A DNA stretch of 64,000 nt, taken from contig CAMDCN010000008.1 in NCBI GenBank assembly GCA_945890485.1, positions 186,001-250,000 on the forward strand, in the 5' to 3' direction. The stretch is from Candidatus Sulfopaludibacter sp. SbA3. Its GTDB lineage: Bacteria > Acidobacteriota > Terriglobia > Bryobacterales > Bryobacteraceae. Positions within the stretch are counted from its first letter, which is position 1; the number at the start of each line of letters is the position of its first letter. This document shows positions 41,515 through 55,156 of the stretch, piece by piece. The notes beneath the pieces are model-generated. The model saw nothing but the letters and a program-made list of their open reading frames with translations. It did not search any database and was not told the DNA's origin. A program made the position numbers and the translations under genes.

Positions 41515-41961
41515 GTGATCGACTTCGGCTTGCTCTGGCTCCGGTTGGGATTCGGTTTCGGCATGGCGTGCCTCCACGGCGCGCAAAAGGTAGCCGGAGC
41601 GTGGGCCTACTTTCGCACCGGGGCCGAATGGGATTTGCTCCCCGAAGTTATCCTGCTCGGCTTCCCGTGGCCCGTCGCGTTCGCGCTTGCGGCCACGGCC
41701 GCCGAGTTTGCGGCGGCGATCCTGCTCGGATTGGGCCTCTTCACACGTTGGTGCGCCGGAGTGCTGGCGTTTACGATGCTGATGGCGGCACGCTACCACG
41801 CCATTGCTGGCGGCGAAGGGGAACCTGCCGCCGCTTACGGCTTCGTCTTTCTCGCTCTGGTATGGACGGGTGGGGGACGCTATTCCTGGGACTACTATCG
41901 GGGCTATGCCGATAATGGGAAGTTTCCCTCTGCGACAATCGAACGATGGCGCCGCGACTGA
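41515..41961 (+). CDS. DoxX family membrane protein
   Basis: A 148-residue protein with four membrane helices of the DoxX type ('LRLGFGFGMACLHGAQKV' start, 'AEFAAAILLGLGLFTRWCAG'). The family includes quinol-oxidase subunits and redox-linked membrane proteins; specific function unknown. The start is GTG. The end overlaps the start of the first ABC ATPase by 16 bases, so it is probably cotranscribed with the importer. Confidence 0.8.
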   Translation: MIDFGLLWLRLGFGFGMACLHGAQKVAGAWAYFRTGAEWDLLPEVILLGFPWPVAFALAATAAEFAAAILLGLGLFTRWCAGVLAFTMLMAARYHAIAGGEGEPAAAYGFVFLALVWTGGGRYSWDYYRGYADNGKFPSATIERWRRD

Positions 41962-42620
41962 AGATCGCGAATCTGAGCGTGACTTACGCCGGGGCGGTGA
42001 CGGCGCTTTCCGGCGTTAATCTCGAAGTTGCGCCCGGCGAGGCCCTCGGCGTCTTCGGCGAATCGGGAGCGGGGAAGTCGACTCTGCTGCGGGCAATCGT
42101 GCGGCTCCTACCGGCAGGAACTCTGGTCGAGGGTTCGATCCGCTCTGAAAGTGTGGAACTCCTTCTCGAGCCCGAAGACGGGATGCGGCGCGTGAGAGGC
42201 CGTGGCGTGGCCTACATCCCCCAGGCTCCGTCAGAGGCATTGAACCCGGTGCTAACGGCTCTGACACAGGTCGCGGAGGTTCTGCGCGTGCATTTCCCGA
42301 TGACCCGCGCGGCGTTGCGTGAAGCGGCTATGGAACGGCTGGCCCGCTTCTTCCCCGAGAACGCAACACGCATTGCGCACGCCTACCCGCATGAGCTGAG
42401 CGGAGGCGAGCGGCAGCGCGTCGTGATCTGCCAGGCGTTGTGCGCTTCTCCCGGCCTACTGTTGGCCGACGAGCCAACCTCGGCGCTCGATTCCGTCGCC
42501 CAACTGGAGTTTCTGCGGATGTTGCGGCACGAGCGGGAGCGAGCCGGGATGAGCTTGATCTTCGTGAGCCACGACCGCGCGGTGCTACGGTTCGTCACCG
42601 GCCGGCAGGTGTCACTGTGA
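41946..42620 (+). CDS. peptide/nickel-type ABC importer ATPase 1
   Basis: A 224-residue nucleotide-binding subunit like OppD/NikD: Walker A 'GESGAGKST' (near 38-46), Q-loop 'YIPQAPSEALNPV', signature 'LSGGERQRV', Walker B 'LLLADEPTSALDS' and the switch His in 'IFVSHDRAV'. It is about 100 residues shorter than OppD since it ends right after the core and lacks the C-terminal oligopeptide-type extension with Fe-S ligands. First of five importer genes; its stop overlaps the next start (GTGA). Confidence 0.9.
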   Translation: MAPRLKIANLSVTYAGAVTALSGVNLEVAPGEALGVFGESGAGKSTLLRAIVRLLPAGTLVEGSIRSESVELLLEPEDGMRRVRGRGVAYIPQAPSEALNPVLTALTQVAEVLRVHFPMTRAALREAAMERLARFFPENATRIAHAYPHELSGGERQRVVICQALCASPGLLLADEPTSALDSVAQLEFLRMLRHERERAGMSLIFVSHDRAVLRFVTGRQVSL

Positions 42621-43318
42621 CGCTTGAGTTGGTCGATGCTGGAAAGCTTTACGCGGAACGGCAGCGGTTCCGGGCCTTCGGGCCGGTGAGTCTCACACTG
42701 CGCGAAGGAGAGTGCGTGGCGCTCGTCGGCCGGTCGGGCGCGGGAAAAAGCACACTGGCGCGATGCCTGGCGGGGTTGGAGCCGTTGACGGAGGGCAGGC
42801 TGGAGGGCGGCGGACGAGCCGTGCAACTGCTGTTTCAGGATTCGCCGTCGGCGCTGCCTCGGCAGTGGACGGTGGCCGAAATTCTAGCGGAACCTCTCCA
42901 TCTGGCCGGACGGAGCGAGACGCCGGGGCAGTTGGGCGAACGATTGGAACAGGTGGGCCTGAGCGCAACGCTGCTTGGCCGTCCGGCGGACACCCTCAGC
43001 GGTGGGCAGCGGCAGCGCGTGGCTCTGTCAAGAACCTTGGCCGTGCCGGAGCTGCGGCTGCTGCTGCTCGACGAACCGTTTGCGGGATTGGACCCCGCAG
43101 CGGCCGCGGGATTGGCCGGCCTGGTGGAAGATTGGCGCGTGCGGAGGGGCATAGGCCTGCTGCTGATCACGCACGATCTGGCGGGGGTGCAACGGCTGGC
43201 GGAGACGGTGATGGTGATGGCGGAGGGGAGAATTGTCGAGACGAAGCCATCTGCGGAGTTCTTCAGCCGTGCCGAGCACCCGGCGAGCCGGGCCCTGCTG
43301 GAGGCCATGCTGCCTTGA
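42617..43318 (+). CDS. peptide/nickel-type ABC importer ATPase 2
   Basis: A 233-residue partner ATPase (OppF/NikE type) with Walker A 'GRSGAGKST' (near 38-46), signature 'LSGGQRQRVALSRTL', Walker B 'LLLLDEPFAGLDP' and the H-loop 'LLITHDLAG'. Like ATPase 1 it has no C-terminal extension. The GTG start at 42617 lies in a GTGA overlap; a longer in-frame reading starts inside the previous gene and is rejected. It ends in a TTGA overlap with the first permease. Confidence 0.9.
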   Translation: MTLELVDAGKLYAERQRFRAFGPVSLTLREGECVALVGRSGAGKSTLARCLAGLEPLTEGRLEGGGRAVQLLFQDSPSALPRQWTVAEILAEPLHLAGRSETPGQLGERLEQVGLSATLLGRPADTLSGGQRQRVALSRTLAVPELRLLLLDEPFAGLDPAAAAGLAGLVEDWRVRRGIGLLLITHDLAGVQRLAETVMVMAEGRIVETKPSAEFFSRAEHPASRALLEAMLP

Positions 43319-44223
43319 AGTATCTCCTCCGGCGGGTGGGTGGGGCGCTGCTGCAACTGGCGGCCGTGTCGGTGCTGGCGTTCGGCTTAATGGAACTCGC
43401 GCCGGGGGACTACCTCGAAGACATGCGCGTGAATCCGCAGATTCCGGCCGAAACGGTGGCGCGATGGCGTGCGGAATTCGGCTTGGACCAGCCGGCGGCG
43501 GTGCGGTACTGGCGATGGGCCGGTTCGGTCGTGCGCGGCGAGTTCGGCATGTCGATGGCGTATGGGATTCCGGTGTCGGAGCTGTTGGGGCCGCGCGTTG
43601 AACGGACGGTGGCCCTCTCCTTACTGGCGCTCGCGCTCACTTGGCTGATCGCGGTGCCGTGCGGGGTATGGTGCGCGGCGCGCCGCGGCGGATGGGTGGA
43701 CCGGCTGCTCGGCGGCGGAGCCACCGTCGCGTTGGCGTTGCCGGAACTCCTGGTGGGGCTGCTCCTGTTGCAGGGGGCGCTGTGGGCGGGATGGGGCCCG
43801 GTCAGCGGCCGCATCGGCCCCGCTGCCGCGGTCTTGCTGCTGGTCTCGTTCCCCGCCGTATTCCGGCACACGCGCAGTAGCGTTGCCGAGGTGCTGCGGT
43901 TGCCGTTCGTGGATCATCTCCGTGCCTCGGGCCTGAGCGAAATGCGAATTCTGTTCCGGCATGTGTTGCCCGCGAGTTTGAATCCGCTCGTCAGCTTACT
44001 GAGTCTGTCGCTCGCCGGAGTCACCAGCGCATCGCTCGTCGTGGAGGTGACACTCAGTTGGCCGGGCCTGGGGCCTCTGCTGCTCGAAGCTATTCTGGCG
44101 CGGGACGTCGCCGTCGTACTGGCTTCCGTGATGCTTGCCGCGGCGCTTTTGCAGGTGGCGACACTCGCCGGGGATCTGATGCTCTACCTTGTCGATCCCC
44201 GGATCCGGAGGGGCCGGGCATGA
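43315..44223 (+). CDS. peptide/nickel-type ABC importer permease 1 (OppB/DppB-like)
   Basis: A 302-residue inner-membrane permease starting 'KYLLRRVGGALLQLAAVSVLA', with the family's 'ELAPGDYLED' loop, about six helices and the EAA coupling motif region 'DHLRASGLSEMRILFRHVLP'. It pairs with the next gene to form the channel. The start is TTG overlapping the previous stop; the 200-residue in-frame upstream extension is a shadow of ATPase 2. Confidence 0.9.
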   Translation: MKYLLRRVGGALLQLAAVSVLAFGLMELAPGDYLEDMRVNPQIPAETVARWRAEFGLDQPAAVRYWRWAGSVVRGEFGMSMAYGIPVSELLGPRVERTVALSLLALALTWLIAVPCGVWCAARRGGWVDRLLGGGATVALALPELLVGLLLLQGALWAGWGPVSGRIGPAAAVLLLVSFPAVFRHTRSSVAEVLRLPFVDHLRASGLSEMRILFRHVLPASLNPLVSLLSLSLAGVTSASLVVEVTLSWPGLGPLLLEAILARDVAVVLASVMLAAALLQVATLAGDLMLYLVDPRIRRGRA

Positions 44224-45026
44224 AGGCGTGTGCCGTGTTCCTGATCGTGGCGCATCTGCTGGCTGCCATGGCGGGATGGGTGTCGAGCTATGACCCAGCC
44301 GAGCAGCATCGCGAACATGCGTGGGAAGCGCCGGGAGAGCGGTTTCCGCTCGGAACGGATGGACTGGGGCGGGACCAGTGGTCGAGGCTGGTCCATGGGG
44401 CGCGTATCTCTCTGTATTCCGGGTTGGCGGCGGGAGTGCTGTCGGCTGCGCTGGGACTGTTGCTCGGCGGCTGGGCTGGGCTGTCCGGCGGCTGGACCGA
44501 CCGGCTGATCACCCGCTTGATGGAGCTGTTCCTCGCCTTGCCGTGGATGTATCTGCTGCTGGCGGTGCGGGCGTTTTTCCCTTTGGAGACGGATGCCCGC
44601 CTGGTGTTCCTCGCGCTGCTGCTCCTGCTGGGAGCCATCGGATGGGCCCGGCCGGCGCGTCTGGTGCGAGGAATCGTGATGAGCGTGAAGGAGCGGGAAA
44701 GTCTTTTGGCGGCTCGGGGATTCGGCGCCGGACGATGGTATCTGTTGCGGCGGCACATCCTGCCGGAGGTCTTACCTGTGCTGGGAACGTATCTGAGCCT
44801 GGCGATTCCGCAGTATGTCGCGGCGGAGGCGACGCTGTCGTTTTTAGGGTTGGGCTTTAGCGGGTCAACCCCCAGTTGGGGTTCCCTGGTGGGGGCGATG
44901 GGGAGCCTGGAGGTGCTGAGCGAGGCATGGTGGATGGGGTTGCCCGCGGTGGCGCTAGCCCTGGTGTTGGGATGTTATTCTATTGTTTCCAGCGCTTTGG
45001 CGGGAACAGAACACCAGGGAAGGTGA
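44220..45026 (+). CDS. peptide/nickel-type ABC importer permease 2 (OppC/DppC-like)
   Basis: A 268-residue permease with the OppC-type N-terminal helix, the periplasmic stretch 'FPLGTDGLGRDQWSRLVHGA' that is diagnostic of this subunit, five more helices and the EAA motif 'ESLLAARGFGAGRWYLLRRH'. It is shorter at the N-terminus than typical OppC. ATG 44220 lies in an ATGA overlap with permease 1; the binding protein gene begins 2 bases after its stop. Confidence 0.9.
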   Translation: MKACAVFLIVAHLLAAMAGWVSSYDPAEQHREHAWEAPGERFPLGTDGLGRDQWSRLVHGARISLYSGLAAGVLSAALGLLLGGWAGLSGGWTDRLITRLMELFLALPWMYLLLAVRAFFPLETDARLVFLALLLLLGAIGWARPARLVRGIVMSVKERESLLAARGFGAGRWYLLRRHILPEVLPVLGTYLSLAIPQYVAAEATLSFLGLGFSGSTPSWGSLVGAMGSLEVLSEAWWMGLPAVALALVLGCYSIVSSALAGTEHQGR

Positions 45027-45028
45027 CC

Positions 45029-46684
45029 ATGCAAATGCGATCGGCCAGGCTCTGCCGAGGACTGCTTCTGTCGGTGCTGGCGGTTTTGCCTGTCTGGGGG
45101 CAAAGCGGAGGCCGCGTGGTCGTGGTGCAACGGTCCGAACCGAGAGGCTTTCAACCGGTCTACGCCGTGGACGAGCCCTCGCGCGCCGTCATCGGCTTGT
45201 TGCACGCGCCGCTGCTGCGGATTCACTCGGAAACCCAGGAGACGGAAGCCGCTCTGGCGGAATCGTGGAAGGTGAGCCCAGACGGGCTCGTCATCACAGT
45301 GGCTTTGCGGCGAGGGGTGCAGTTTTCTGACGGTACTCCGTTGACGGTGGACGATGTCCTGTTCACCTTTGCGGTGCATCAGGATCCTGCCGTGGCGTCG
45401 CCGCAGCGGGAGGTGCTGCAGGTGGGGGGCAAGCCGCTGGCCGTCTCGGCCGCCGGGGCGGGCGCCATCAAATTCCAAATGGCGGAGCCGTATGCGGCGG
45501 GCGAAAGGCTCCTGGCCGGCATTGCGATCCTGCCGAAGCATCGGATGCAGGCGGCCTACCGCGAGGGCAGGTTCCGCACCTTTTGGGGACTGGGCACCAA
45601 GCCCGAAGAGCTAGTGGGCGCTGGTCCGTTCCGTGTGAAAACCGTCGAGCCCGGGCAGCGGATGGTGCTCGAACGGAATCCCCGGTATTGGAAGCGGGAT
45701 AAAGCAGGCAAAACGATGCCATACCTGGACGAAATGGAGTTCGTGTTTGCCGCTGGCGAAGACGCCCAGGTGGCGCGCCTGCTGGCCGGAGAGGCCGACC
45801 TCGCCGCGGGGTTCGGCGGTGGAAGCTACCGCGCCATCGAGGCCAATCGTGAAAGGCGCGGAATCCGCCTGACCGATGCGGGGCCGAGCCTGGACTACAC
45901 GTTTCTCTTGTTCAATCTCAACCCGGAGAGCAAGCGCGAATGGTTCGGCCAGACAGCGTTCCGCCAGGCCGTCTCCGCGGCGGTAGACCGCGAGTCAATC
46001 GCTCGCTTGGTCTACCGCGGGCGCGCTTCGGCGATTCGAGGGCCCGTTACGCCCGCTCGCCAGAAGTGGTTTGCCGGGCCGCCACCGCCATTCGGGAAGC
46101 CACGGGAGATATTGACCAGCGCCGGCTACCGCTGGGATACAGAGGGGCGGCTGCTGGACCCGAAGGGAGCCACCGTATCGTTCACCCTGCTGGTCAACGC
46201 GGCGAACCCCGCCTACACGCATACCGGCGCGATCATCGAAGAAGACCTGAAAAAGCTTGGCATCGCCGCGCAAGTGGTGCCGATGGAGTTCCGCAGTCTC
46301 GTCGACCGGGTGGTCAACCGGAAGGACTTCGACGCGGCCATCATGGCGCTCCGTCCCGGCGACGTCGATCCCGCGGCGGACGTCAACGCTTGGGTATCGG
46401 CCGGGAAGACTCGGCTTTGGAATTTAAGCGGCAAGGCGATCCGGCCCTGGGAAACCGAAATCGACGAGAAGATGCGCGCGGTGATGGCGACACGGGATCA
46501 GGCGGTTCGAAGACGGTTATTTCACGAGGTCCAGCGGATTCTCGAGCGGGAAGCGCCCATGGTTTGTCTGGTCAGCCCAAATCTGCTGGTTGCCTCCCGG
46601 ATGGGTCTCGAAAACGTGCGTCCCGGGGTGATCGGCGATCTGGTGCTCTGGAACGCGGACGAGTGGTACTGGCGGCGGCCGTGA
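45029..46684 (+). CDS. ABC importer substrate-binding protein, family 5 (peptide/nickel type)
   Basis: A 551-residue periplasmic binding protein with a signal peptide (about 1-25) and the SBP_bac_5 fold: 'AALAESWKVSPDGLVITVAL', 'GVQFSDGTPLTVDDVLFTF', and the domain II region 'FNLNPES' ... 'FRQAVSAAVDRESIARLVY'. These proteins capture oligopeptides, dipeptides, nickel or heme; the ligand cannot be read from sequence. AGGGAAGGTGACC before ATG 45029 is a good ribosome site. Its stop overlaps the sigma factor start (GTGA), tying importer and regulator. Confidence 0.9.
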   Translation: MQMRSARLCRGLLLSVLAVLPVWGQSGGRVVVVQRSEPRGFQPVYAVDEPSRAVIGLLHAPLLRIHSETQETEAALAESWKVSPDGLVITVALRRGVQFSDGTPLTVDDVLFTFAVHQDPAVASPQREVLQVGGKPLAVSAAGAGAIKFQMAEPYAAGERLLAGIAILPKHRMQAAYREGRFRTFWGLGTKPEELVGAGPFRVKTVEPGQRMVLERNPRYWKRDKAGKTMPYLDEMEFVFAAGEDAQVARLLAGEADLAAGFGGGSYRAIEANRERRGIRLTDAGPSLDYTFLLFNLNPESKREWFGQTAFRQAVSAAVDRESIARLVYRGRASAIRGPVTPARQKWFAGPPPPFGKPREILTSAGYRWDTEGRLLDPKGATVSFTLLVNAANPAYTHTGAIIEEDLKKLGIAAQVVPMEFRSLVDRVVNRKDFDAAIMALRPGDVDPAADVNAWVSAGKTRLWNLSGKAIRPWETEIDEKMRAVMATRDQAVRRRLFHEVQRILEREAPMVCLVSPNLLVASRMGLENVRPGVIGDLVLWNADEWYWRRP

Positions 46685-47250
46685 GCGGGAAGACTCCGAC
46701 AGCGCAGTGGGAAGACGCCGCCCTGGTCGAAGCCTGCCTGGCGGGCGACGAGCGGGCGTGGGTCGCGCTGATTGAAAAGTACAAACGGCTGATCTACTCC
46801 GTGCTGATGAAGTACCGCATGCCGGAGCAGGACGCGGCGGACGTGTTTCAAGCCGTCTGCCTCGATCTCTATACCGAGTTGGGTCAATTGCGGGAGGTGG
46901 GGGCGCTACGGGGCTGGCTGGCCCGCGTGGCGGCGAATAAGTGCTTCCATTGGCGGCGGCGAGGAATCAACCGGCCGGAAGAGGAGTTGGACGAGAAGGT
47001 ACACGGCTTGCCGGAGGCGGGGGATCCGGAATGGCTGCAGGCGCTCGAACGGGAGCAGGTGGTTCGCGAAGGGATCGACCGCCTGAGCCCGCGCTGCCAG
47101 GAACTGGTGCGGATGCTCTTCTTTGAAGATCCGCCGAGGCCCTATGAGGACGTGGCGCGAGAGTTGGGATTGGCCACGGGTTCCATCGGCTTCATCCGCG
47201 GACGGTGCCTCGAAAAGCTGGCTGCGGCGCTGGAGGAGGTCGGGCTGTGA
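46681..47250 (+). CDS. ECF sigma factor
   Basis: A 189-residue extracytoplasmic-function sigma-70 factor. Region 2 (about 15-85) includes 'MPEQDAADVFQAVCLDLYTE' for core binding and -10 recognition, with 'GWLARVAANKCFHWRRR'. Region 4 (about 125-180) includes 'LSPRCQELVRMLFFEDPPRP' and the helix-turn-helix 'YEDVARELGLATGSIGFIRG' for -35 recognition. Between them is an acidic linker. The GTG at 46681 overlaps the binding-protein stop; its own stop overlaps the CHAT gene start. The target promoters are unknown; an ECF of this kind often drives its own operon. Confidence 0.92.
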   Translation: MSGKTPTAQWEDAALVEACLAGDERAWVALIEKYKRLIYSVLMKYRMPEQDAADVFQAVCLDLYTELGQLREVGALRGWLARVAANKCFHWRRRGINRPEEELDEKVHGLPEAGDPEWLQALEREQVVREGIDRLSPRCQELVRMLFFEDPPRPYEDVARELGLATGSIGFIRGRCLEKLAAALEEVGL

Positions 47251-49961
47251 CGGCCGAGATGGTCATCGCCCTGTGCGAGCAGGCCCGGGAGGCCATGCGG
47301 AGTGATCTGGGCCGGGCCGGTGAGTTGGCTGAAACAGCCCTGGCCGCGGCCAGGAAAATCGGCGACCGCGCGGCGCGGGCCGAAGCGTTGCGGATGAAAG
47401 GCCATGTGGCGTATCTCGTCGGGCAATATCGGAAGGCGATGGCGGCCTACCGCCCGGCCGTACGCTTGCTGGAGCAGTTGGGGCAGACGGTGGATGCTGG
47501 ACGCACACGGAGCAGCGCCCTGCAGAGCTTGATTTATCTGGGCCGCTACGAAGAGGCGCTGGAATGGGCCGCGCTGGCGAGAAAGGTGTTCGCCGAAGGC
47601 GGCGATGAGTTGCGGCTTGCCCGGTTGGACAGCAACGAAGCAAACATCCTGCACCGGCAGGACCGGCACGAGGAGGCGCTCGCGTTGTACCAGCGGGCGG
47701 CGGAGGGCCTGAGGCGGCATCGTGACCTGGATTCGCTGGCCATCGCGGTGCGGAACATGGCCGTCTGCCATGCGGCGCGCCACGAACTCAGCCTCGCGCT
47801 GGCCTGTTACGAAGAGGCGGCGCGCTTGTACCGGGAGCGCAATCTGCCGCTGCTGGCTGCGGAGGTCGGCGACAATATCGCCCAACTGCACTACCTCCGG
47901 GGCGACTACCTCGTCGCTCTCGAAACCTACCGGGCGGCCAACGTGGACGGGCGGGCCAATACCTTTCATGCCGCTGTGGCGCGCCTGGACCAAAGCGAAC
48001 TGCTCCTTGAACTGAACCTGTTCAGTGAGGCCGCGGAGTTGGCCGCGGCCGCCGCCGGGCGGTTTCGCGCGCTGGGTATCCGGTACGAACGGGGAAAAGC
48101 GCTTTTGGCTTGGGCGGCCGCGGCGTTTCGATTGGGAGAAAGCGAACGGGCGCTGCGCCTTCTGCCCGAAGCGGCCAAACTGTTTCGCCGGGAAGGGAAC
48201 TTGGGTTGGATGGCCGCGACCGGTTTCTACCGGGCGGCGATGCTGATGGACCTCGGCGATCGTGACGGCGCGAAGATCGCTGCCGAGGCTTCGCTCAACC
48301 AGTTGGAGGGGAGCAAGCACCTGGCGGCTCTATTTCTGCTCACGAGGATTGCTCTGCGGGACGGGCGGATCGCCGAGGCGTGGAAATACTTCCGGTGGGC
48401 GGACGAACGGGGACGGATCGCTGGAACGCTACCGGTGCGGTACCAATTGGCGATGGTGGCGGGCGCCTTGCGGGAAGCCAGTGGAGAGCTGGCGGCGGCG
48501 TGGGCGGAGTATCAGCGGGCGCATGAGATTCTGGAGATTCTCCGGGGGCAGTTCGGCGGAGACGGCCTGCGGATCTCGTTTCTGGAGGATAAGCGCGGCT
48601 GCTACGAAGAGCTCGCCGGGATGGCGCTTCGAGGCACGGTGGCCTGCCCCGTTGAGCAGGTGTTTACCTACATTCAGCAGGCAAAATCGCGGAGCTTGGC
48701 CGACGGCATGCTACAAAACGATGGGCCGGAAGAGCCGGAGGAGACAAAAGCCATCCGGGGAACCTTGTCGTGGTGCTATCGCGAGTTGGATCGCGCCGAT
48801 ACGCCGGCCCTCCGGGCTCGGATTGATAGCCTGGAGCGGCAACTTGCCGGCGAATGGTCGCTCCGGAGTGGATCCGGGGGGCGGGCGTTGATCTCCGCCG
48901 CGCAGGTTCAGGCTGGCTTGGGGCCGGACGAATCGTTGATCGAGTATTTCGTGGCCCAGGAATGGTTGTACGCGCTGGTACTGACCCAAGGCTCCTTGCG
49001 CGCGGAGCGGGTGTCGCGTTGGCAGGACGTGGAGCGGACGTGCCATCTGCTGCGGTTCCAGATGTCGCGCGGGATCTGGGCCGGAGTGCAGACGGATGGG
49101 CAGATGTGGATGGCGGCGACGGAGCATCATCTGCGGGAACTCTACCGGTTGTTAGTCCTGCCGCTGGAGCCGCACCTGACGGCGGGACATTGGACTTTCG
49201 CGCCACAGGGCGTGCTGCACCGGGTTCCTTTTCCGGCCCTTCTGGCTGCTGACGGATACCTGATCGAACGGAGAACCATCGGCTATGCTCCCAGTGCGAT
49301 GGTTCACCAACTGTGCCAGAGCCGGCCGCGAGGGAAAGGGTCCGGAATGGCCCTGTTTGGAGTCCCCGATGCTGCTGCGCCGGAAATTGAAAGCGAAGTG
49401 CGCGAATTGGCCGGCCTGCTGGATGTACCCGCGGTGTTCGTGGGCGAGGCGGCGTCGCTGCGGAACTGGGCCGCTGAAATGGGTCGCAGCCGCGTGGTGC
49501 ACTTGGCGACGCACGGCCTTTTCCGCCAGGACAACCCCCTGTTCTCCTCAGTGCGCTTGCAGGATGGACGATTCTGCCTCTATGACCTTTACTCGATGCG
49601 GGTGGAGGCCGATCTCGTCACGTTCAGTGGCTGCGCGACGGGAATGCTGGAAACCCGAGGCGCCGATGAAGTGATGGGCTTGGCGCGGGGCCTGCTGTCG
49701 GCGGGCGCTCGCGCCGCCCACCTCTCACTCTGGGATGTGAACGATGGTTCGACCGCCTATTACATGGCGCAGTTCTACCGGTCCCTGCGCGATGGGTCGA
49801 CCGTGGCCAATGCCGGCCGCACGGCGATGCTGGCCACTCGCGATCGTTCCCCGCACCCGTTCTTCTGGTCTGCCTTCTTCCTGACGGGCCAGGTAAGGAA
49901 TTCCATCGGGACTCTATTTTCGGACCCGCCAGCATACCCTTATGGAGTGAACTCCCCGTGA
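47247..49961 (+). CDS. TPR-CHAT caspase-like protease
   Basis: A 904-residue cytoplasmic protein. Residues about 1-440 are tandem TPR-like helical repeats ('YRKAMAAYRPAVRLLEQLG', 'YEEALEWAALARKVF', 'HEEALALYQRAAEGLRRH' and others); then a helical linker, and a C-terminal CHAT domain (about 620-890) of the caspase/separase clan. The catalytic dyad is intact: His756 in 'VVHLATHGLF' and Cys796 in 'VTFSGCATG'. TPR-CHAT proteins cleave specific partners on a signal; Csx29 of type III-E CRISPR is one example. GTG 47247 has GGAGGAGG upstream and overlaps the sigma factor stop. No signal peptide. The likely substrates are its operon neighbours (inference). Confidence 0.9.
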   Translation: MTAEMVIALCEQAREAMRSDLGRAGELAETALAAARKIGDRAARAEALRMKGHVAYLVGQYRKAMAAYRPAVRLLEQLGQTVDAGRTRSSALQSLIYLGRYEEALEWAALARKVFAEGGDELRLARLDSNEANILHRQDRHEEALALYQRAAEGLRRHRDLDSLAIAVRNMAVCHAARHELSLALACYEEAARLYRERNLPLLAAEVGDNIAQLHYLRGDYLVALETYRAANVDGRANTFHAAVARLDQSELLLELNLFSEAAELAAAAAGRFRALGIRYERGKALLAWAAAAFRLGESERALRLLPEAAKLFRREGNLGWMAATGFYRAAMLMDLGDRDGAKIAAEASLNQLEGSKHLAALFLLTRIALRDGRIAEAWKYFRWADERGRIAGTLPVRYQLAMVAGALREASGELAAAWAEYQRAHEILEILRGQFGGDGLRISFLEDKRGCYEELAGMALRGTVACPVEQVFTYIQQAKSRSLADGMLQNDGPEEPEETKAIRGTLSWCYRELDRADTPALRARIDSLERQLAGEWSLRSGSGGRALISAAQVQAGLGPDESLIEYFVAQEWLYALVLTQGSLRAERVSRWQDVERTCHLLRFQMSRGIWAGVQTDGQMWMAATEHHLRELYRLLVLPLEPHLTAGHWTFAPQGVLHRVPFPALLAADGYLIERRTIGYAPSAMVHQLCQSRPRGKGSGMALFGVPDAAAPEIESEVRELAGLLDVPAVFVGEAASLRNWAAEMGRSRVVHLATHGLFRQDNPLFSSVRLQDGRFCLYDLYSMRVEADLVTFSGCATGMLETRGADEVMGLARGLLSAGARAAHLSLWDVNDGSTAYYMAQFYRSLRDGSTVANAGRTAMLATRDRSPHPFFWSAFFLTGQVRNSIGTLFSDPPAYPYGVNSP

Positions 49962-50605
49962 AACACTATTCGATGGCAGCATGGACGGACTTCATTCGTG
50001 GCTTGACGAACGGGTCTGACCGCTCTGAAATGACGCGGCATTTGAATGCACCTTGTCCCGAGTGCGGACGGTTGGTGGCGCTGCTCGGCGCCGTGAAAGA
50101 AAGTGAAGCGCCCGTCGAGGTGCCGGATGCAATGGTCGCCCGGGCGCGCGCCATCTTCCCGAAGCGCGAGGCCCCGAGGCGGGAATCGGCCGTGGAACGC
50201 CTGGTTGCTTCGCTCATCTTCGACAGCTTTACTTCGGCCGTTCCGCTGGGGGCGCGTTCTACGGCGTCGTCCGTGCGGCGGTTGAGTTTCGGCGCGGGGG
50301 AGACCAACGTGGAACTGGTGGTGGACGCGCCGAAAGGGGGAGCCGTCACGCTTACCGGAACATGCTCCGCGACGGGGCGCGAGGTTCATCTCTACGAAAA
50401 GCAACGCCTGCTGCAGACGGTGAACACGAGTGTGTTCGGGGAATTTCATCTGCAGTTCGAGCCGCACAAGGGCATGCGGCTCGTAATTACTAACCTGCCG
50501 GCCCGCGGATCCGTCGAGGTTCCCCTGGATTTCCTACTTCCCTTGAAACAGAAGAAGGCGGATTTAGATCCAACCCGGTCAACCGGTTCATCGGAGATTT
50601 TATGA
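49958..50605 (+). CDS. zinc-finger anti-sigma-like protein, possible CHAT substrate
   Basis: A 215-residue protein without signal peptide or membrane helix. Near the N-terminus H28-x4-C33-x2-C36 ('RHLNAPCPECGRLVALL') resembles the H-x3-C-x2-C zinc motif of ZAS anti-sigma factors, with one extra residue in the first spacing. A basic helical segment (about 55-90) and a C-terminal beta domain (about 100-200) follow. Its position between the TPR-CHAT protease and the subtilisin, in 4-base overlaps on both sides, and its linkage to an ECF sigma factor suggest that it binds the sigma factor or is cut by the protease. That role is inference. Confidence 0.7.
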   Translation: MKHYSMAAWTDFIRGLTNGSDRSEMTRHLNAPCPECGRLVALLGAVKESEAPVEVPDAMVARARAIFPKREAPRRESAVERLVASLIFDSFTSAVPLGARSTASSVRRLSFGAGETNVELVVDAPKGGAVTLTGTCSATGREVHLYEKQRLLQTVNTSVFGEFHLQFEPHKGMRLVITNLPARGSVEVPLDFLLPLKQKKADLDPTRSTGSSEIL

Positions 50606-51957
50606 AGTTCATCACGATGCTGTTCTTGTTCCTTGCCTCCGGGCCGCTGTCGATGGCGGCGGAACTGTTTATCGTCCGGGCTGTTCCGCCGTACATGCGG
50701 GAGCTGGCGGCGCAGTTTAACTTGACCATTCTGAAGCGGATTCCGGGCCAGGATATCTTCCTGGTGCAGGGCCCCGAAGGGGTTTCGAGTCAACAAGTGA
50801 TCCGGAATCTCGAAAATTGGGACTACGGCAAGGACCCCGGGGACAACGACAGTGATGACGACGACGATGTTAGCGTCGAGTTGGACGTGTCGGTCTCTCT
50901 GGCGGAAACCGCGCCCAACGCTCCGCGTCTGAATAGCGACCAGACCGCCGTATGGCAAGCGATGCAGGACCGGCGCATGGTTTCGTTTCAAGGGACGCCA
51001 GCCTGGACCGGCTATGTGAACCAACCGGCGATCGCGAAAATCCGCGCGGCGGAGGCTCATCGGCGGTATGGAACGGCGGCGGCGACCGTCGCCGTGATCG
51101 ACACTGGCATCGACCCTGGCCATCCGCTGTTGCAAGGGGCGCTCGTGGATGGATACGATTTTGTCCGGGACCTGGCAGGGCCGCCGTCCGAACTCGACGA
51201 CCTCGATGAAGAGACCCGGCGTATATTTAACCCCTATACAACGGCAATTTTGGATATGTTCGGCGAGGCGAATCCGTACACGACGGCCATTCTGGATCAA
51301 TTCACGGCCGCGCGCCTGGATCCGAACCGGCTGCCTCCACAGTTCGGCCACGGGACCATGGTGGCCGGAGTCATCCGGCTGGTGGCGCCCGGTGCGAAGA
51401 TTATGCCGTTAAAGCCGTTCGGAGCGGATGGCCGGGCGAAACTGTTCAACCTGCTGCAGGCGGTCTACTATGCCGTTGACCGCCGGGCGAAAGTGATCAA
51501 TATGAGCCTGAGTTTAGAGGCTTCTTCCGGAGAACTGGAACGGGCGATTCAGTATGCGGCCGGCAAGGGCGCCGTGGTCGTGGCCTCGGTTGGGAACAGC
51601 GGGAAAGAGATTATGACCTATCCGGCCGGGTATAAAGAGGTGATTGGCGTCGCCTCGACGAATGGAGCGGACCGGCAGAGTGTCTTCACCAATTTCGGCG
51701 ACAACGTGACGACGCTGGCGGCGCCAGGAGAAGCCGTCATTACCTTGTATCCGGGCGGCCGATACGCCGCCGGCTGGGGCACCTCGTTCAGCGCGCCAAT
51801 GGTCTCGGGGGCCGTAGCCCTCATGGCGCGTATTTACCGGCCACTCAACTGGGAGAAAGCGGAAGACGGCGTGAAGGAAGCGGCCCCGGTGGACGGTAAC
51901 CTGGGTAACGGCAGGCTGGATGTGTTACGGGCCGTACGGAAAGCGGTAGAATTTTAG
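50602..51957 (+). CDS. secreted subtilisin-like serine protease (S8)
   Basis: A 451-residue exported protease: signal peptide (about 1-19), a short propeptide-like part (20-75), an acidic Asp-rich linker (D81-D89, possibly Ca2+-binding), then the S8 domain. The triad is Asp167 in 'VAVIDTGID', His250 in 'FGHGTMVAG' and Ser395 in 'WGTSFSAPMVSG', with oxyanion Asn332. The Asp-to-His distance is longer than usual because of an insert (about 190-240) holding two copies of NPYTTAILD. ATG 50602 overlaps the upstream stop (ATGA). It may generate the peptides taken up by the importer at the head of the operon. Confidence 0.92.
   Translation: MKFITMLFLFLASGPLSMAAELFIVRAVPPYMRELAAQFNLTILKRIPGQDIFLVQGPEGVSSQQVIRNLENWDYGKDPGDNDSDDDDDVSVELDVSVSLAETAPNAPRLNSDQTAVWQAMQDRRMVSFQGTPAWTGYVNQPAIAKIRAAEAHRRYGTAAATVAVIDTGIDPGHPLLQGALVDGYDFVRDLAGPPSELDDLDEETRRIFNPYTTAILDMFGEANPYTTAILDQFTAARLDPNRLPPQFGHGTMVAGVIRLVAPGAKIMPLKPFGADGRAKLFNLLQAVYYAVDRRAKVINMSLSLEASSGELERAIQYAAGKGAVVVASVGNSGKEIMTYPAGYKEVIGVASTNGADRQSVFTNFGDNVTTLAAPGEAVITLYPGGRYAAGWGTSFSAPMVSGAVALMARIYRPLNWEKAEDGVKEAAPVDGNLGNGRLDVLRAVRKAVEF
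51229..51297 (+). repeat. internal duplication encoding NPYTTAILD twice in the subtilisin
   Basis: Residues 210-218 and 224-232 of the protease are the same nine residues, spaced 14 residues apart (start of copy 1 at 51229, copy 2 at 51271). The nucleotide copies differ at several third positions, so selection on the peptide rather than a fresh duplication keeps them alike. Confidence 0.8.
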
Positions 51958-52060
51958 AATTAATTTCACCCAGCTCTATTTTTAGTCCAGTCAGCGAACC
52001 CTACTTAGATGGCACTTGGATGTAATCAAGTTAGCCACTTACTTAGGAGTTTCTTTGATT

Positions 52061-52615
52061 ATGACGATCAAGAAGAGTCTGTTGATTTTGACGATGCTGG
52101 TTCCGGGGGCTTTGATGGCCGAGGACACCCAGTGCAACGGCGTGCTGAAGGGCTCGCACGACAACGTGATTGTTCCCGAGTCGGCCGTCTGCACCCTGCA
52201 GAATGCCCGCCTGAACGGAAGTGTCTATGTGAAGCGCGGCGGCGCCCTCACGATTCAGGGCCGCACGTACGTGAATGGAAACGTGATCAGCGAGGACGGT
52301 GGCCGCTACGTCCGGATCACCGGGACCAATGTCCGCATCGGCGGAAACGTGCAGATGAAGTATAACTACGACACGAGCGCGATTCAGCCGGGAACGACCA
52401 TTCAGGGTAGCCTGCAGTATGTGGAGAATACCGGCGCGTTGTTTGTTACGGGAGTATTCATCGGCAGCGACCTGCAACTGTTCAAAAACTCTGGCGGTGC
52501 GACGTTGATGAACAACACGATTCGTCAGAACATGCAGTGTAAGGAGAACACCCCGGCGCCTTCAGGCAGCGGGAACGTAGCTGGCGACAAAGAAGACCAG
52601 TGCCGGTCACTCTAA
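52061..52615 (+). CDS. small secreted repeat protein, probably beta-helical
   Basis: A 184-residue exported protein with a signal peptide (about 1-20, cleaved near 'LMAED'). The mature part repeats short strand units of the type N-G-x-V-x-V / G-x-x-x-I-x-G ('NARLNGSVYVKRGGALTIQG', 'YVNGNVISEDGGRYVRITG'), as in right-handed beta-helix or bactofilin-like polymer-forming folds, and it has two Cys near each end. ATG 52061 is preferred; TTG 52055 lies at better spacing (5 bases) from AGGAG. It is separated by 103 bases from the subtilisin gene and has its own terminator. Function unknown. Confidence 0.7.
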   Translation: MTIKKSLLILTMLVPGALMAEDTQCNGVLKGSHDNVIVPESAVCTLQNARLNGSVYVKRGGALTIQGRTYVNGNVISEDGGRYVRITGTNVRIGGNVQMKYNYDTSAIQPGTTIQGSLQYVENTGALFVTGVFIGSDLQLFKNSGGATLMNNTIRQNMQCKENTPAPSGSGNVAGDKEDQCRSL

Positions 52616-52675: not shown

Positions 52676-55156
52676 CTACGCCGGCTGCGCTTCGAGTCGC
52701 CGGTGGTACTCCTCATACCGCGTGGCGGGATCATGAAACCGCACGGTGTAGTCTCCGGGGCCCGGCACCGGCGCCGCAAATTTGTTGCCCGTCATCCGCA
52801 GGCTGTAAAGCACGCGCCCTTCGGCGTCCCGCACCTCGGCCACGCATCGTGTCCGCCCCGTCAACTCCGGCAGCCGGTAGGCCGAGCGCGGCATGTCGGT
52901 AATCGTCAGCGGCCAGCCCGGATACGGCTTGTCGCCCTTCGCGATACTCGCCCAACGCGGCCAGTTCGTCAGCGTAATCTTGTGGTCCGCCCGCGAAATC
53001 TCCACGACGCCGAACCCCGGCGCCCGGTTGTTCAGCGCCGTCGGAAGCACCCCGAACTGCATCGGATTCGCCACTGCGTGCACCGTGATCTTGTTCCCGA
53101 ATCCGTCCGTAAACTCGCCCGTATTCCGCGGGCTGTGGGGCAGGGGATTGCGGCCTGGCTTGGGCGGAAACCACCGCCGGGGGAAGATGTTCGAGATCGC
53201 CGGGGTGCAGAGCGCAAACGGCCCGTCGTTCCAATCGTCGATGCCGTACTGCACCGTGCTGCCCAAATGCTGGTCCCCGGCAATATGAAACGCGCTCGCT
53301 TGCCGGATCAGTCGTAGCGCCTTATTGCGCCCGTGCTGTGGCCACCCGTTCGAATCGTGGTCCATCGTGGGGATTTCGCCCTCGCCGTACTCCCCCGGCT
53401 TCAGCACGGGCAATTTGGTGGTCACGGCGTCCGTCAGCGCCGGCGCAGGCAGCGTGGCCAAGGTACAGAAAATTGTCGCGCTGACGGCGCACTTCATCCA
53501 GATCCCGTTCGACCAATCCAGCGCCCAGTCCGCCAAAAACTGCTCCTGCCGGGCTCCCAGCAGTTCGGCCGTCGGTGAATCGAGCCCTTTCCAGTCCGGA
53601 TTTTGCGGGAAGCCGTTGACGATCCGGGCGTCCGGCAGCACCGTTTTGGGCGCCGTCTTCCACTTTCGGTCTTCAATCAGCGCGAAACTGATTCCGCCCC
53701 AAACCAGATGGCTGTAGAGCACCGCGATGTTCTGTTCTACCGGCGCCTTCTCCGGAGGGTCCGGCAGATGGCTCGATTGGGTCCGTTGCACGAGGTTTAC
53801 CCACGGAGCCGGCATCGTGTAGCCACCCGAGTCCTGGCCCGGCTGACCCTGTCCTTCGGCCCGCCGCCCGCCCGCGCCCCACACGTTCCCATGAAACACG
53901 TCATGATCGTCCGGCAGGCAGACGCACGGTGTATTCCGCGTCAACTCGCCCCACGCCCAGCCAAACAAGTACCACTTTCGCAGGTAGTCGAGCCGGGCTG
54001 CCGGCGCGGGCGTCCGCTGAATGCCGTAGTCGCCGTTCCGTTCGTAGATCTGGTCGCCCGTAAAGAACAGAATGTCCGGCCGCACCGTCTTTAAGTTTTC
54101 AAAGATTGGCGTATGCGGATAGCCGTAATCCCCCTGACAGGTCAACGCGCCAATCGTCAGCTTTGCCTTGTCGTTCGGTTCCCGCGGGATCGTCCCCGCG
54201 AGCCGGGCGGATCCGTATCGCACTTCATAAGGCGTATCAGCGGCCGCATCCCAATTCACTCGGAATGTCGCCGTCGCCGAGTCCCGATCCACCGCTGCCG
54301 ACCCCAACTTCCGCGCTCCCGCGAAGAGCTCCACGGTTGCATTGGGCTCGTCCAACGGCGCCAACTGCACGGTCATCTTAAGAACCTTGTTCGACACGGT
54401 GAACTGGTTGAACAACAGCGGCCCCCAAGCCCGCTCGGGCCTTGCCGCCACCTGCGTGCCGGATACCTTCAGGTTCCGAAACCAGTACCGCACATTCCCG
54501 CCGCGCTCGGTAAACGGCCTCGCCGCGAAGCCGAAATCGGCCGCCGTCGACCGTTCCGGGGACCGCCGTACCGGCCCGTGCGAACAGACGACAGCTACCA
54601 ACCCCGGAATCCAGTCCGCCGGCACCCGTTCCCGCTTGTACTCGGAAAGCACGGGGCCAGTGGGGTCGAATGCCGTCAAGGTCAGCGTACCTGGTTCGGC
54701 GGTGAGCCGGAGCCGGACCGGCTTTGACGGATCGAGTGTCGCCGTGGAGTTCGAAAGGTCGGCAATAAACAATCGTCCATCGGTGGTTACGCCGCAGTTT
54801 ACCCCTCGCCCGAATATCGCGTCGTCCCGATAGTCGCCGAAGTTGCCGCGCATGCCGATTCGCAGCCCCGCCCAACCTTCGTTCATCTTGGTGGCGGGAT
54901 CCAGCGGGCCCATTTCCACTTCCACCAGTACCGTTCCCGGAGCAGCCAGAACCTCTTGCGTTAGGAGCGCGACCGACCGGTCTCCGCCCGAGACAATGCA
55001 CTCCATCCGGCCATCGTGCAGTTGCCAATCCTGCAGTGGGTTGGCCCAATACTCTGGTCCAATCCAAGGACGGGTGACGCCGCTGGGTAATGTGGTTTGG
55101 GCTAGGGCGGGCGTGGCGAGGGCAATGGTCCGAAGGAGTTCGCGGCGGGTGGGCAT
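52676..55156 (-). CDS. PhoD-like phosphatase/phosphodiesterase, exported
   Basis: An 826-residue protein with a twin-Arg-like leader ('MPTRRELLRTIAL'). An N-terminal beta-rich region of about 250 residues may bind a ligand or sugar. The PhoD-type metallophosphatase domain spans about 330-720, with metal ligands visible in 'FFTGDQIYERN' (near 365), 'CLPDDHDVFHGN' (near 413) and 'HIAGDQHLGS' (near 622). PhoD enzymes hydrolyse phosphate mono- and diesters outside the cell using Ca2+/Fe3+. The family here is an atypical long version, so substrate is uncertain. It lies downstream of the TonB receptor with a terminator between. Confidence 0.85.
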   Translation of the reverse strand: MPTRRELLRTIALATPALAQTTLPSGVTRPWIGPEYWANPLQDWQLHDGRMECIVSGGDRSVALLTQEVLAAPGTVLVEVEMGPLDPATKMNEGWAGLRIGMRGNFGDYRDDAIFGRGVNCGVTTDGRLFIADLSNSTATLDPSKPVRLRLTAEPGTLTLTAFDPTGPVLSEYKRERVPADWIPGLVAVVCSHGPVRRSPERSTAADFGFAARPFTERGGNVRYWFRNLKVSGTQVAARPERAWGPLLFNQFTVSNKVLKMTVQLAPLDEPNATVELFAGARKLGSAAVDRDSATATFRVNWDAAADTPYEVRYGSARLAGTIPREPNDKAKLTIGALTCQGDYGYPHTPIFENLKTVRPDILFFTGDQIYERNGDYGIQRTPAPAARLDYLRKWYLFGWAWGELTRNTPCVCLPDDHDVFHGNVWGAGGRRAEGQGQPGQDSGGYTMPAPWVNLVQRTQSSHLPDPPEKAPVEQNIAVLYSHLVWGGISFALIEDRKWKTAPKTVLPDARIVNGFPQNPDWKGLDSPTAELLGARQEQFLADWALDWSNGIWMKCAVSATIFCTLATLPAPALTDAVTTKLPVLKPGEYGEGEIPTMDHDSNGWPQHGRNKALRLIRQASAFHIAGDQHLGSTVQYGIDDWNDGPFALCTPAISNIFPRRWFPPKPGRNPLPHSPRNTGEFTDGFGNKITVHAVANPMQFGVLPTALNNRAPGFGVVEISRADHKITLTNWPRWASIAKGDKPYPGWPLTITDMPRSAYRLPELTGRTRCVAEVRDAEGRVLYSLRMTGNKFAAPVPGPGDYTVRFHDPATRYEEYHRRLEAQPA

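Follow-up and report, generated by a model that had tools for sequence, protein, structure and literature searches.

The locus raises the question of what would release an ECF sigma factor that is encoded in one row with a TPR-CHAT protease, a zinc-finger protein and a secreted S8 protease. The window, that is, the whole stretch of 64,000 nucleotides that was analysed, had been read from sequence alone as holding a four-gene operon in which, by analogy with type III-E CRISPR loci, the CHAT protease would cut a sigma-binding partner upon a trigger sensed by its TPR part, with the S8 protease as an output. Three points lie beyond this sequence-only reading: a peptide importer in the same gene chain, repeated peptides in the S8 protease, and a second copy of the operon at another place in the same genome. 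The best explanation of the operon is proposed to be a peptide export-import signalling circuit, to which a probability of roughly 45% is assigned.

The gene chain and its conservation

The genes for the sigma factor (SIG), the TPR-CHAT protease, the zinc-finger protein (ZNF) and S8 are consecutive, and the ORF coordinates give an overlap of 4 bases for every adjacent pair, as had been claimed (Table 1). These four genes are half of the operon: the chain begins at 41515, upstream of them, and also encodes all parts of an oligopeptide ABC importer, the binding-protein gene of which has candidate start codons at 45023, 45029 and 45035 and a stop codon that overlaps the start of SIG by 4 bases. 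It is doubtful that the DoxX-like protein encoded by the first gene is part of the module. The description of the operon as free of CRISPR holds for positions 36000-60000 of the window, where no CRISPR-like direct repeats were found.

Table 1. Genes of the chain and peptide copies in S8, in window coordinates
Feature	Position	Strand	Evidence and remarks
DoxX-like membrane protein, opening the chain	41515..41961	+	Pfam DoxX, E 1.3e-9; 16-base overlap with ATPase 1
ABC ATPase 1, oligopeptide importer	41946..42620	+	ABC_tran, E 6.1e-26; related loci have homologues ahead of SIG
ABC ATPase 2, oligopeptide importer	42617..43318	+	ABC_tran, E 1.6e-23; GTGA overlap
Importer permease 1, predicted TTG start	43315..44223	+	BPD_transp_1, E 6.1e-31
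Importer permease 2	44220..45026	+	BPD_transp_1, E 2e-21
Peptide-binding protein, SBP family 5	45023..46684	+	SBP_bac_5, E 3.3e-73
ECF sigma factor SIG, 189 aa	46681..47250	+	Sigma70_r2, sigma70-ECF; TIGR02937, E 1.2e-21
TPR-CHAT protease, 904 aa	47247..49961	+	Pfam CHAT, E 3.8e-51, and TPR_12; CHAT at 629-882, TPR N-terminal to CHAT
ZNF, likely soluble ZAS-type anti-sigma factor, 215 aa	49958..50605	+	No Pfam matches
S8 secreted pro-subtilase, 451 aa	50602..51957	+	Peptidase_S8, E 7.5e-39
Peptide copy 1, NPYTTAILD, S8 residues 210-218, Asp-His loop	51229..51255	+	
Peptide copy 2, NPYTTAILD, S8 residues 224-232	51271..51297	+	

The neighbourhood, whose conservation in relatives had been proposed as a check, is kept across Acidobacteriota: the same-strand order SIG-CHAT-ZNF-S8 is found in 34 of 60 related loci, the window counted, and a binding protein lies near SIG in 37 of the 43 related loci that hold SIG (directly upstream in 34, in a divergent importer in two and in a downstream importer in one). 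This order and the importer linkage rule out a chance neighbourhood. Four loci (L040, L047, L078 and L087) have SIG with 3-7 kb of upstream sequence and no binding protein there; in L047, SIG adjoins ZNF and CHAT is absent. In genome G030, S8 has been relocated ahead of the importer, yet within the same gene row. Forty loci were also fetched from outside the family; an S8 match occurs in 33 of them and a binding protein in 13. A single-sequence search of the genome contigs returned no ZNF relatives, and no paper on the importer or the repeats in such a setting was found in a literature search covering titles and abstract openings, most subscription papers being outside its reach.

Octapeptide copies within the S8 protease

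Secretion of S8, claimed previously, agrees with a hydrophobic signal-like segment at its N-terminus, present likewise in 47 of 48 homologues. The catalytic triad is D167, H250 and S395, the latter rather than S397, which was rejected as the catalytic serine; the triad D and H are found in 48/48 homologues and the GTSF motif is invariant in 42/42. According to Foldseek, the structure model of one family member (L114:2477-3844) matches pro-subtilisins, prodomain included, with EpiP and another lanthipeptide leader protease among the matches, and the only stretch of the model with pLDDT below 50 (residues 208-237) falls in the repeat loop.

The S8 proteins bear copies of an 8-residue peptide, from 1 to 15 per protein, located in the Asp-His loop or at the prodomain junction. 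The window has a YTTAILD core, the second operon of the same genome a QSTVAFLDG unit, and other operons QSTVAILD, QETTPILD, QTSQAFID and further variants, including DPRTFVFI and DPRTIVFI in L188 and L191. An extra copy at the prodomain junction, matching at 7 or 8 of 8 positions, occurs in 13 of 70 S8 proteins, and other lineages with copies at this junction are L187, L193, L195, L197, L212 and L214; the 15 copies are those of L181. Three of the four g4 S8 proteins have a single unit, judged by eye, and L065 and L066 have no repeats; outside the family, the octapeptide repeat is missing from 17 of the 33 loci bearing S8. At least two copies are present in 46 of the 48 S8 proteins retrieved via ZNF with the repeats disregarded; in the full set of 72, 24 proteins derive from a scan for the repeat itself. 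That tandem-pattern scan, run over 84,980 genomes, gave 55 matches, all 55 in Acidobacteriota and in this S8, with the other phyla covered through the repeat pattern alone. Within the genome of the window (G000), the pattern coding for YTTAILD is matched exactly only twice, each time in the S8 of the window, and the peptide was thus rejected as a motif common to other proteins of that genome.

The two window copies differ at 6 of 27 bases and every change is synonymous. Copies are near-identical within one protein and unlike between operons (identity 98.6% versus 69%), figures to which the unit finder contributes, since it demanded an acidic residue (D or E) as the eighth and a match at 6 of 8 positions, and the acidic end and the agreement of copies are therefore partly by construction. 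The 299 copy pairs in 70 proteins have a pS of 0.63 and a pN of 0.010, and synonymous sites between copies are near saturation, the mark of selection on the repeats; for this reason, slippage or recent gene conversion was rejected as the origin of the identical copies. A stacked structural solenoid is not supported either, given the low pLDDT of the repeat loop in the L114 model and the different location of the copies among lineages. Even if the peptide had no role as a signal, near-identical copies within a protease at near-saturated synonymous divergence would demand an explanation.

A rival explanation is that of a feeding operon, in which S8 would digest extracellular proteins, the importer would bring in peptides, and TPR-CHAT would sense peptides or starvation in general and free sigma by cleavage of the anti-sigma factor, the repeats being zymogen-processing or sentinel sites that S8 itself cuts and that are free of any message. 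Pro-subtilisins self-process at the prodomain junction, where many of the copies lie; a secreted protease and a peptide importer are a natural scavenging pair, and the acidic end of the unit would suit a processing site, although the finder demanded D or E; repeats at the junction, judged by eye, likewise finish in D or FID. Nevertheless, a feeding operon leaves unexplained why units differ among operons yet agree within one protein, why up to 15 copies are retained, and why the TPR and the binding protein follow the unit more closely than the S8 catalytic domain does (see below), and it is considered rather unlikely.

Covariation, the candidate receptor and the anti-sigma candidate

Across 41 operons, the peptide distance best tracks TPR residues 1-300 of the CHAT protein (correlation 0.56; partial 0.31, 0/500 permutations), and the S8 catalytic domain, which carries the peptide, gives 0.32 (partial 0.14, 24/500 permutations); inclusion of the binding protein (27 operons) gives 0.65, with a partial of 0.30. 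In 20 disjoint pairs, the partial value for TPR 1-300 is 0.50 (p 0.024) and that for TPR 121-260 has a p of 0.061, and the highest raw correlation belongs to the S8 catalytic domain (0.69 versus 0.64 for TPR 1-300). All these values were obtained with the unit of L052 corrected and L056 left out; with the former miscalled and the S8 of the latter mispaired with the neighbouring operon's CHAT, the disjoint-pair test gives p values of 0.11 and 0.095. Windows of the CHAT protein beyond the N-terminal TPR (401-460 and 681-740) are also positive, and the covariation could stem from shared descent.

These data also bear on the idea that the repeats serve S8 alone, as an inhibitory or activation segment for its active site, with SIG, CHAT and ZNF answering an unrelated cue. 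Both sites of the copies, the Asp-His loop and the prodomain junction, suit such a role, as do the positive partial value of 0.14 for the S8 catalytic domain and its leading raw correlation in the disjoint pairs; the weaker partial association of this domain compared with the TPR, the wide variation in copy number and location, and the conserved importer linkage argue against it, and it appears distinctly unlikely.

His756 and Cys796 of the TPR-CHAT protein are exactly where the sequence-only reading had placed them, and both are invariant in all 44 CHAT homologues with a length of 800 aa or more. PDB profiles match the CHAT domain proteins of Craspase and, over residues 56-257, RapF/RapJ, alongside stronger matches to other TPR proteins; this span includes residues 161-220, the TPR stretch that tracks the peptide best. 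The proposal that the TPR part senses another kind of trigger also fits. S8 is probably more than an output: it carries a candidate signal peptide and the operon holds an importer, which makes an imported peptide the most likely trigger.

SIG matches sigma-H, sigma-E, SigW and others in PDB profiles. ZNF has no membrane helix, as stated earlier, with no 19-residue TM-like window in any of 58 homologues, and consists of a helical domain with the motif H28-x4-C33-x2-C36 followed by a carboxypeptidase-regulatory-like beta domain; among the 58 homologues, the histidine is kept in 56, the first cysteine in 58 and the second in 57. The zinc motif of ZAS anti-sigma factors is HxxxCxxC, set in a helical domain and with a usual His-Cys spacing of 3, and the spacing of 4 in ZNF is one residue above this canonical value. 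The profile search gave RsiW at E 0.0018 and 3hug (RslA) at only E 0.12, the best match being that of the beta domain to a hydroxytransferase subunit (E 0.0004). Foldseek returned ChrR twice at E 8.8e-4, the sole matches below 0.001, with TM-scores of 0.20-0.23 and an rmsd of 16-18. At E values up to 0.5, zf-HC2 is found in 11 and CarboxypepD_reg in 12 of 38 family members, the window member having neither. In profile (RsiW) and in fold (ChrR), ZNF resembles anti-sigma factors of the soluble ZAS type and is likely one of them, which makes the claim that CHAT cuts a sigma-binding partner plausible; the SIG/ZNF pair without CHAT in L047 points the same way, and the parallel with Csx29 holds as a working principle only.

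The resemblance of the zinc domain to RsiW and ChrR likewise weighs against control of the type proposed for ECF54, a group with CHAT, subtilase and carboxypeptidase neighbours, where proteases would act on the sigma factor itself with no anti-sigma factor (PMC8999054, in the part accessible); the carboxypeptidase-regulatory-like neighbour in the present operon has such a zinc domain, and this alternative is regarded as most improbable. A Csx29-like switch for stress or defence, set off by an unknown cue inside the cell and acting through S8 as the effector, which follows the line of the sequence-only reading, would account for the pairing of TPR-CHAT with an ECF sigma factor and for the anti-sigma-like ZNF, and has a precedent in Csx29 cutting Csx30, the inhibitor of CASP-sigma (PMC10028731, from the available excerpt). 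However, PADLOC, which assigned a TPR model to CHAT and subtilase and IetS models to S8, called no defence system, and the importer and the repeats would be left unexplained, which makes such a switch very unlikely.

The proposed circuit and known systems

What the sequences show directly is which genes are present and conserved, their domains, catalytic residues that are intact, and the repeats with the selection on them; the steps from peptide release through sigma liberation are those that we infer. In the peptide export-import circuit, S8 would be exported as a zymogen with at least one octapeptide copy at the prodomain junction, in an exposed active-site loop, or both, and the octapeptide would be freed by self-processing or by sister S8 molecules. 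The Opp-type importer of the operon would carry it into the cytoplasm, where binding to the N-terminal TPR superhelix of TPR-CHAT would activate the caspase-like CHAT protease. CHAT may then cleave the soluble ZAS anti-sigma factor, perhaps at the flexible linker between the zinc and beta domains, and the freed ECF sigma factor would transcribe the operon and other genes in a positive feedback loop. The loci that lack a binding protein or the repeats speak against this circuit, as does the fact that an importer and a secreted protease would equally suit simple feeding on peptides. More tentatively, the operons may form a pheromone family that is phylum-wide in diderm Acidobacteriota, in which a peptide encoded in the protease that releases it is re-imported and activates a caspase-like receptor, with destruction of an anti-sigma factor as the result; each operon would use its own octapeptide, and the NPYTTAILD and QSTVAFLDG operons of one cell would therefore be private channels.

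The operon may thus represent a new bacterial way of peptide signalling. If so, it would provide a peptide language for Acidobacteriota, a soil phylum that is abundant and little studied, join RRNPP-type signalling with protease-controlled sigma factors, assign TPR-CHAT proteases a native function apart from CRISPR and hint at how the poorly understood ECF54 sigma neighbourhood works. The proposal is directly testable, because the genome sequence spells out the candidate signals, which can then be synthesized.

The candidate parts recall the RRNPP systems of Bacillota (Rap/Phr, NprR, PlcR, PrgX and Rgg) in the secreted peptide, extracellular processing, re-import and TPR receptor, and the complete oligopeptide importer in the operon would serve the putative uptake of the signal. 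Tandem peptide copies are known from Phr propeptides (PMC11343458, accessible portion), and RRNPP receptors are of 250-500 aa by the definition of a detector (PMC10075063, likewise in part). In contrast, the candidate receptor in the operon is a caspase-like protease beyond this size range, the peptide lies inside a secreted protease instead of a small propeptide, for which the overlapping genes leave no room in 42617-51957, and the output would run through an ECF sigma factor and its likely anti-sigma factor, in Acidobacteriota and not Bacillota.

In type III-E CRISPR, the TPR-CHAT protease Csx29 cuts Csx30, which inhibits CASP-sigma, according to the excerpt of PMC10028731. The operon shares with it a TPR-CHAT protein with catalytic His and Cys, a candidate sigma-binding partner and an ECF sigma factor, and differs in the ZAS-like nature of that partner, the addition of an importer and a peptide-bearing S8, and the absence of a Cas7-11 gene within 41515-51957, where the genes belong to other families; nothing in the analysis ties it to type III-E CRISPR. 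ECF54, whose model member is from Geodermatophilus, is listed with carboxypeptidase, subtilase and CHAT neighbours and without an anti-sigma factor in the available part of PMC8999054, and the importer and the repeats are absent from that description as far as it is accessible; the likeness, judged from neighbour genes and not from the SIG sequence, consists of CHAT and S8 by Pfam and the carboxypeptidase-regulatory-like domain in 12/38. With ChrR-type soluble ZAS factors, ZNF shares a helical zinc domain with a cytoplasmic beta domain after it, and differs in the carboxypeptidase-regulatory-like character of the latter and in its His-Cys spacing of 4. EpiP and the lanthipeptide leader proteases are S8 proteases that process peptide precursors; in the epidermin and lanthipeptide systems the precursor is encoded by a separate gene, whereas here the peptide lies within the S8 protease itself.

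Gene row, importer and neighbourhood

The row proposed in the sequence-only reading, an ECF sigma factor (SIG), a TPR-CHAT protease, a zinc-finger protein (ZNF) and a secreted subtilase (S8), is correctly placed, with a 4-base overlap at each pair; Pfam and NCBIfam assign sigma70-ECF to SIG, TPR plus CHAT to the 904-residue protein and Peptidase_S8 to S8 (catalytic residues D167, H250 and S395), and neither gives a family for the 215-residue window ZNF. His756 and Cys796 are exact in the window CHAT and conserved in all 44 homologues, and the absence of a membrane helix noted for ZNF extends to all homologues (58/58 without a TM segment).

Coordinates of the features discussed
Feature	Location	Strand	Description
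SIG	46681-47250	+	ECF sigma factor
TPR-CHAT	47247-49961	+	904-residue protease
ZNF	49958-50605	+	215-residue zinc-finger protein
S8	50602-51957	+	451-residue secreted subtilase
Downstream gene	52016-52615		small secreted-looking protein
Phosphatase gene	52676-55156	-	PhoD-like
L032	G000:C7:10000-27000		second operon of the same genome
L047	7269-8720		SIG and ZNF
L181	8543-10474		S8 with repeat array

The operon is larger than four genes: same-strand genes upstream of SIG, with 4-base overlaps from 42617 on and some starts being predicted GTG or TTG codons, encode two ABC ATPases, two permeases and a binding protein of family 5, and the stop codon of the last overlaps the start of SIG. Together they make up a complete peptide importer of the Opp/Dpp type, and a DoxX-like gene overlaps its first ATPase by 16 bases. 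Among 43 SIG-bearing loci, the binding protein lies at most 270 bases upstream of SIG on the same strand in 34 (the 4-base overlap occurring in 23), the importer is divergent in 2 and downstream in 1, and no binding protein is seen in 6, two of which have less than 700 bases upstream. A feeding operon would explain part of these data.

With the window ZNF as query, matches are found in 52 of the 237 Bryobacteraceae genomes (23 of 76 genera, 62 places); 60 of the 61 non-window places were fetched, G177:C215 being left out, and ZNF is recovered in the window and in 59 of the fetched places, 60 loci in total, L091 being the exception. The gene order whose conservation in relatives had been proposed as a check, SIG-CHAT-ZNF-S8 on one strand, is present in 34 of these 60; the remaining 26, 9 of which have a contig edge less than 1 kb away on one side, comprise 11 ZNF-S8, 4 CHAT-ZNF-S8, 4 SIG-CHAT-ZNF, 4 ZNF alone and 3 others. 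In genus g4, where S8 had seemed absent, four genomes each carry one S8 of the same protein family adjoining two ABC ATPases, and in G030 of this genus S8 shares a contig with ZNF and stands at the front of the row. A profile search across the phylum Acidobacteriota matched 43 of 396 genomes (67 places), and the 40 regions fetched outside the family contain SIG, ZNF and CHAT in 35, S8 in 33 and the binding protein in 13, frequently in the order SIG-ZNF-CHAT-S8.

The window's genome has a second complete operon (L032), which contains its own importer and encodes another peptide, QSTVAFLDG x2. Two operons stand head to tail on one contig in L056 (G023:C307), the end of CHAT, ZNF and S8 of the first being followed by SIG and CHAT of the second, and genome G368 (L191, L207, L208), outside the family, has seven ZNF matches.

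The zinc-finger protein as candidate anti-sigma factor

Profile and model comparisons make ZNF a likely anti-sigma factor of the soluble ZAS type, carrying a cytoplasmic beta domain. In the N-terminal part, RsiW is matched at E 0.0018 and 3hug only weakly, at E 0.12; the best profile match, a hydroxytransferase subunit (E 0.0004), falls on the beta domain. At E up to 0.5, zf-HC2 is found in 11 of 38 members and CarboxypepD_reg in 12 of 38, the window member showing neither. With the AlphaFold2 model (pLDDT 86, pTM 0.56), Foldseek gives ChrR as the sole match below 0.001 (E 8.8e-4), at TM-scores of 0.20-0.23 and rmsd of 16-18, values that perhaps reflect the two domains lying differently; the low-confidence linker around 71-74 is a candidate cleavage site. 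In L047, SIG adjoins ZNF with CHAT and S8 absent, as expected for a sigma/anti-sigma pair.

Octapeptide repeats in the subtilase

Between the catalytic Asp and His of S8 lie copies of an octapeptide, recognized by a unit finder that required an acidic residue (D or E) in the eighth position and a 6/8 match between copies. The 72 distinct S8 proteins (90 before collapse) were obtained via ZNF (48) or via the repeat scan itself (24), and at least two copies are present in 46 of the former and all 24 of the latter; the S8 of L065 and L066 lack two copies. Over 299 copy pairs, pS is 0.63 and pN 0.010, and mean unit identity is 98.6% within proteins (75% being the minimum that the rule allows) versus 69% between proteins, with positions 4 to 6 as the variable ones. 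A further copy (7 or 8 of 8) where the prodomain joins the catalytic domain occurs in 13 of 70 S8, 12 from the repeat scan and 1 from the ZNF set, and is closer to its own protein's unit than to any other in 12 of the 13; the window S8 is a small variant, with two NPYTTAILD copies and no junction copy. The model of the L114 S8 (pLDDT 87.5) resembles pro-subtilisins, and its single stretch under 50 (208-237) falls in the repeat loop. Part of these data is also explained if the repeats serve the protease alone.

Repeat-bearing S8 genes occur on six stretches of a single genome, gp2 AA80 (L108, L114, L117, L134, L145, L147), with QSTASILD throughout, and tandem pairs of S8 genes sharing one unit are seen in L099, L102, L109, L114, L121 and L179.

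Outside the family, octapeptide repeats are present in 16 of 33 S8-bearing loci, several at the prodomain junction, with units such as QISHAFLD x2, QTSQAFID x3, QRSQAFID x2, QRSVAFVD x2, QRSLAFID x2, QKGAAFVD x2, DPRTFVFI x2 and DPRTIVFI x2. No octapeptide repeat was found in the other 17 (nine checked by script only); of these, L202 and L204 have shorter repeats of WSIGGS type, and visual reading shows one unit each in L207 and L213. A DNA-pattern scan for two tandem Q-S-T-type units, which the window's own unit type would escape, returned 55 stretches from genome_contigs (84,980 species, contigs of at least 3 kb), every title naming Acidobacteriota or its classes or orders; the repeat lies inside an ORF of the same S8 family in 55/55, and ZNF matches in 44, one of them (L118) weakly. 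The S8 of L181 carries 15 copies of QSTGAILD, with a repeated spacer between arrays at the prodomain junction; a Pfam OCRE match at these repeats looks spurious.

Covariation of the unit and relation to known systems

In rank correlations of unit distance with the distance of other operon parts (41 operons), TPR 1-300 is highest (0.56), followed by ZNF beta (0.43), TPR 301-480 (0.41), the CHAT domain (0.40), prodomain (0.35), linker (0.33), S8 catalytic domain (0.32) and ZNF zinc domain (0.26). Partial correlations, with permutations that take no account of descent, are 0.31 for TPR 1-300 (0/500), 0.14 for the S8 catalytic domain (24/500), 0.13 for ZNF beta (35/500) and 0.07 for CHAT (114/500), and lower for the others. 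For eight-column windows drawn 150 times from each of S8 catalytic domain, ZNF beta, prodomain and CHAT, the partial value of TPR is reached 0, 0, 5 and 0 times, and its simple value 0, 0, 0 and 3 times, respectively. Covariation is strongest at TPR residues 161-220 (0.35), and two smaller maxima (0.22 each) lie at 401-460 and 681-740; the TPR profile matches RapF (59-250, E 4e-8) and RapJ (56-257, E 2e-5), many other TPR proteins scoring above both. When the binding protein is included (27 operons), it reaches 0.65 (partial 0.30, 0/200) and TPR 1-300 0.63 (partial 0.26, 0/200). In 20 disjoint closest pairs, partial values are 0.50 for TPR 1-300 (p 0.024), 0.43 for TPR 121-260 (p 0.061) and 0.30 for the S8 catalytic domain (p 0.21), the last being highest in the raw values (0.69 vs 0.64 for TPR 1-300). 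The covariation with the TPR part is suggestive of a receptor and does not shift the weight given to the competing explanations.

The operon parts match an export-import circuit, of which gene anatomy alone is established: S8 would be the secreted carrier of the peptide, the importer would bring it in, TPR would act as sensor fused to the CHAT protease, the ZNF anti-sigma factor would be the CHAT substrate, and SIG would end the circuit. The CHAT and sigma logic is common to Csx29-Csx30-CASP-sigma (PMC10028731), and peptide, import and TPR are common to RRNPP (PMC11343458, PMC10075063); by membership tests, the operon falls outside both RRNPP and type III-E. The outline of the SIG/CHAT/S8 neighbourhood must count as already known via ECF54, which PMC8999054 lists as lacking an anti-sigma factor and as flanked by carboxypeptidase, subtilase and CHAT genes. 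In the literature searched, nothing turned up for such a setting on the importer, on a ZAS-type partner or on the repeats. If the peptide proves a processing site only, the operon would be a variant of a familiar sort; we rank it as a new category because it falls outside RRNPP and type III-E and no known system was found with a comparable peptide-bearing protease.

Directly downstream of S8, the small secreted-looking protein has no Pfam match and a homologue adjoining S8 in L034, and a homologue of the phosphatase lies close to the operon in L033.
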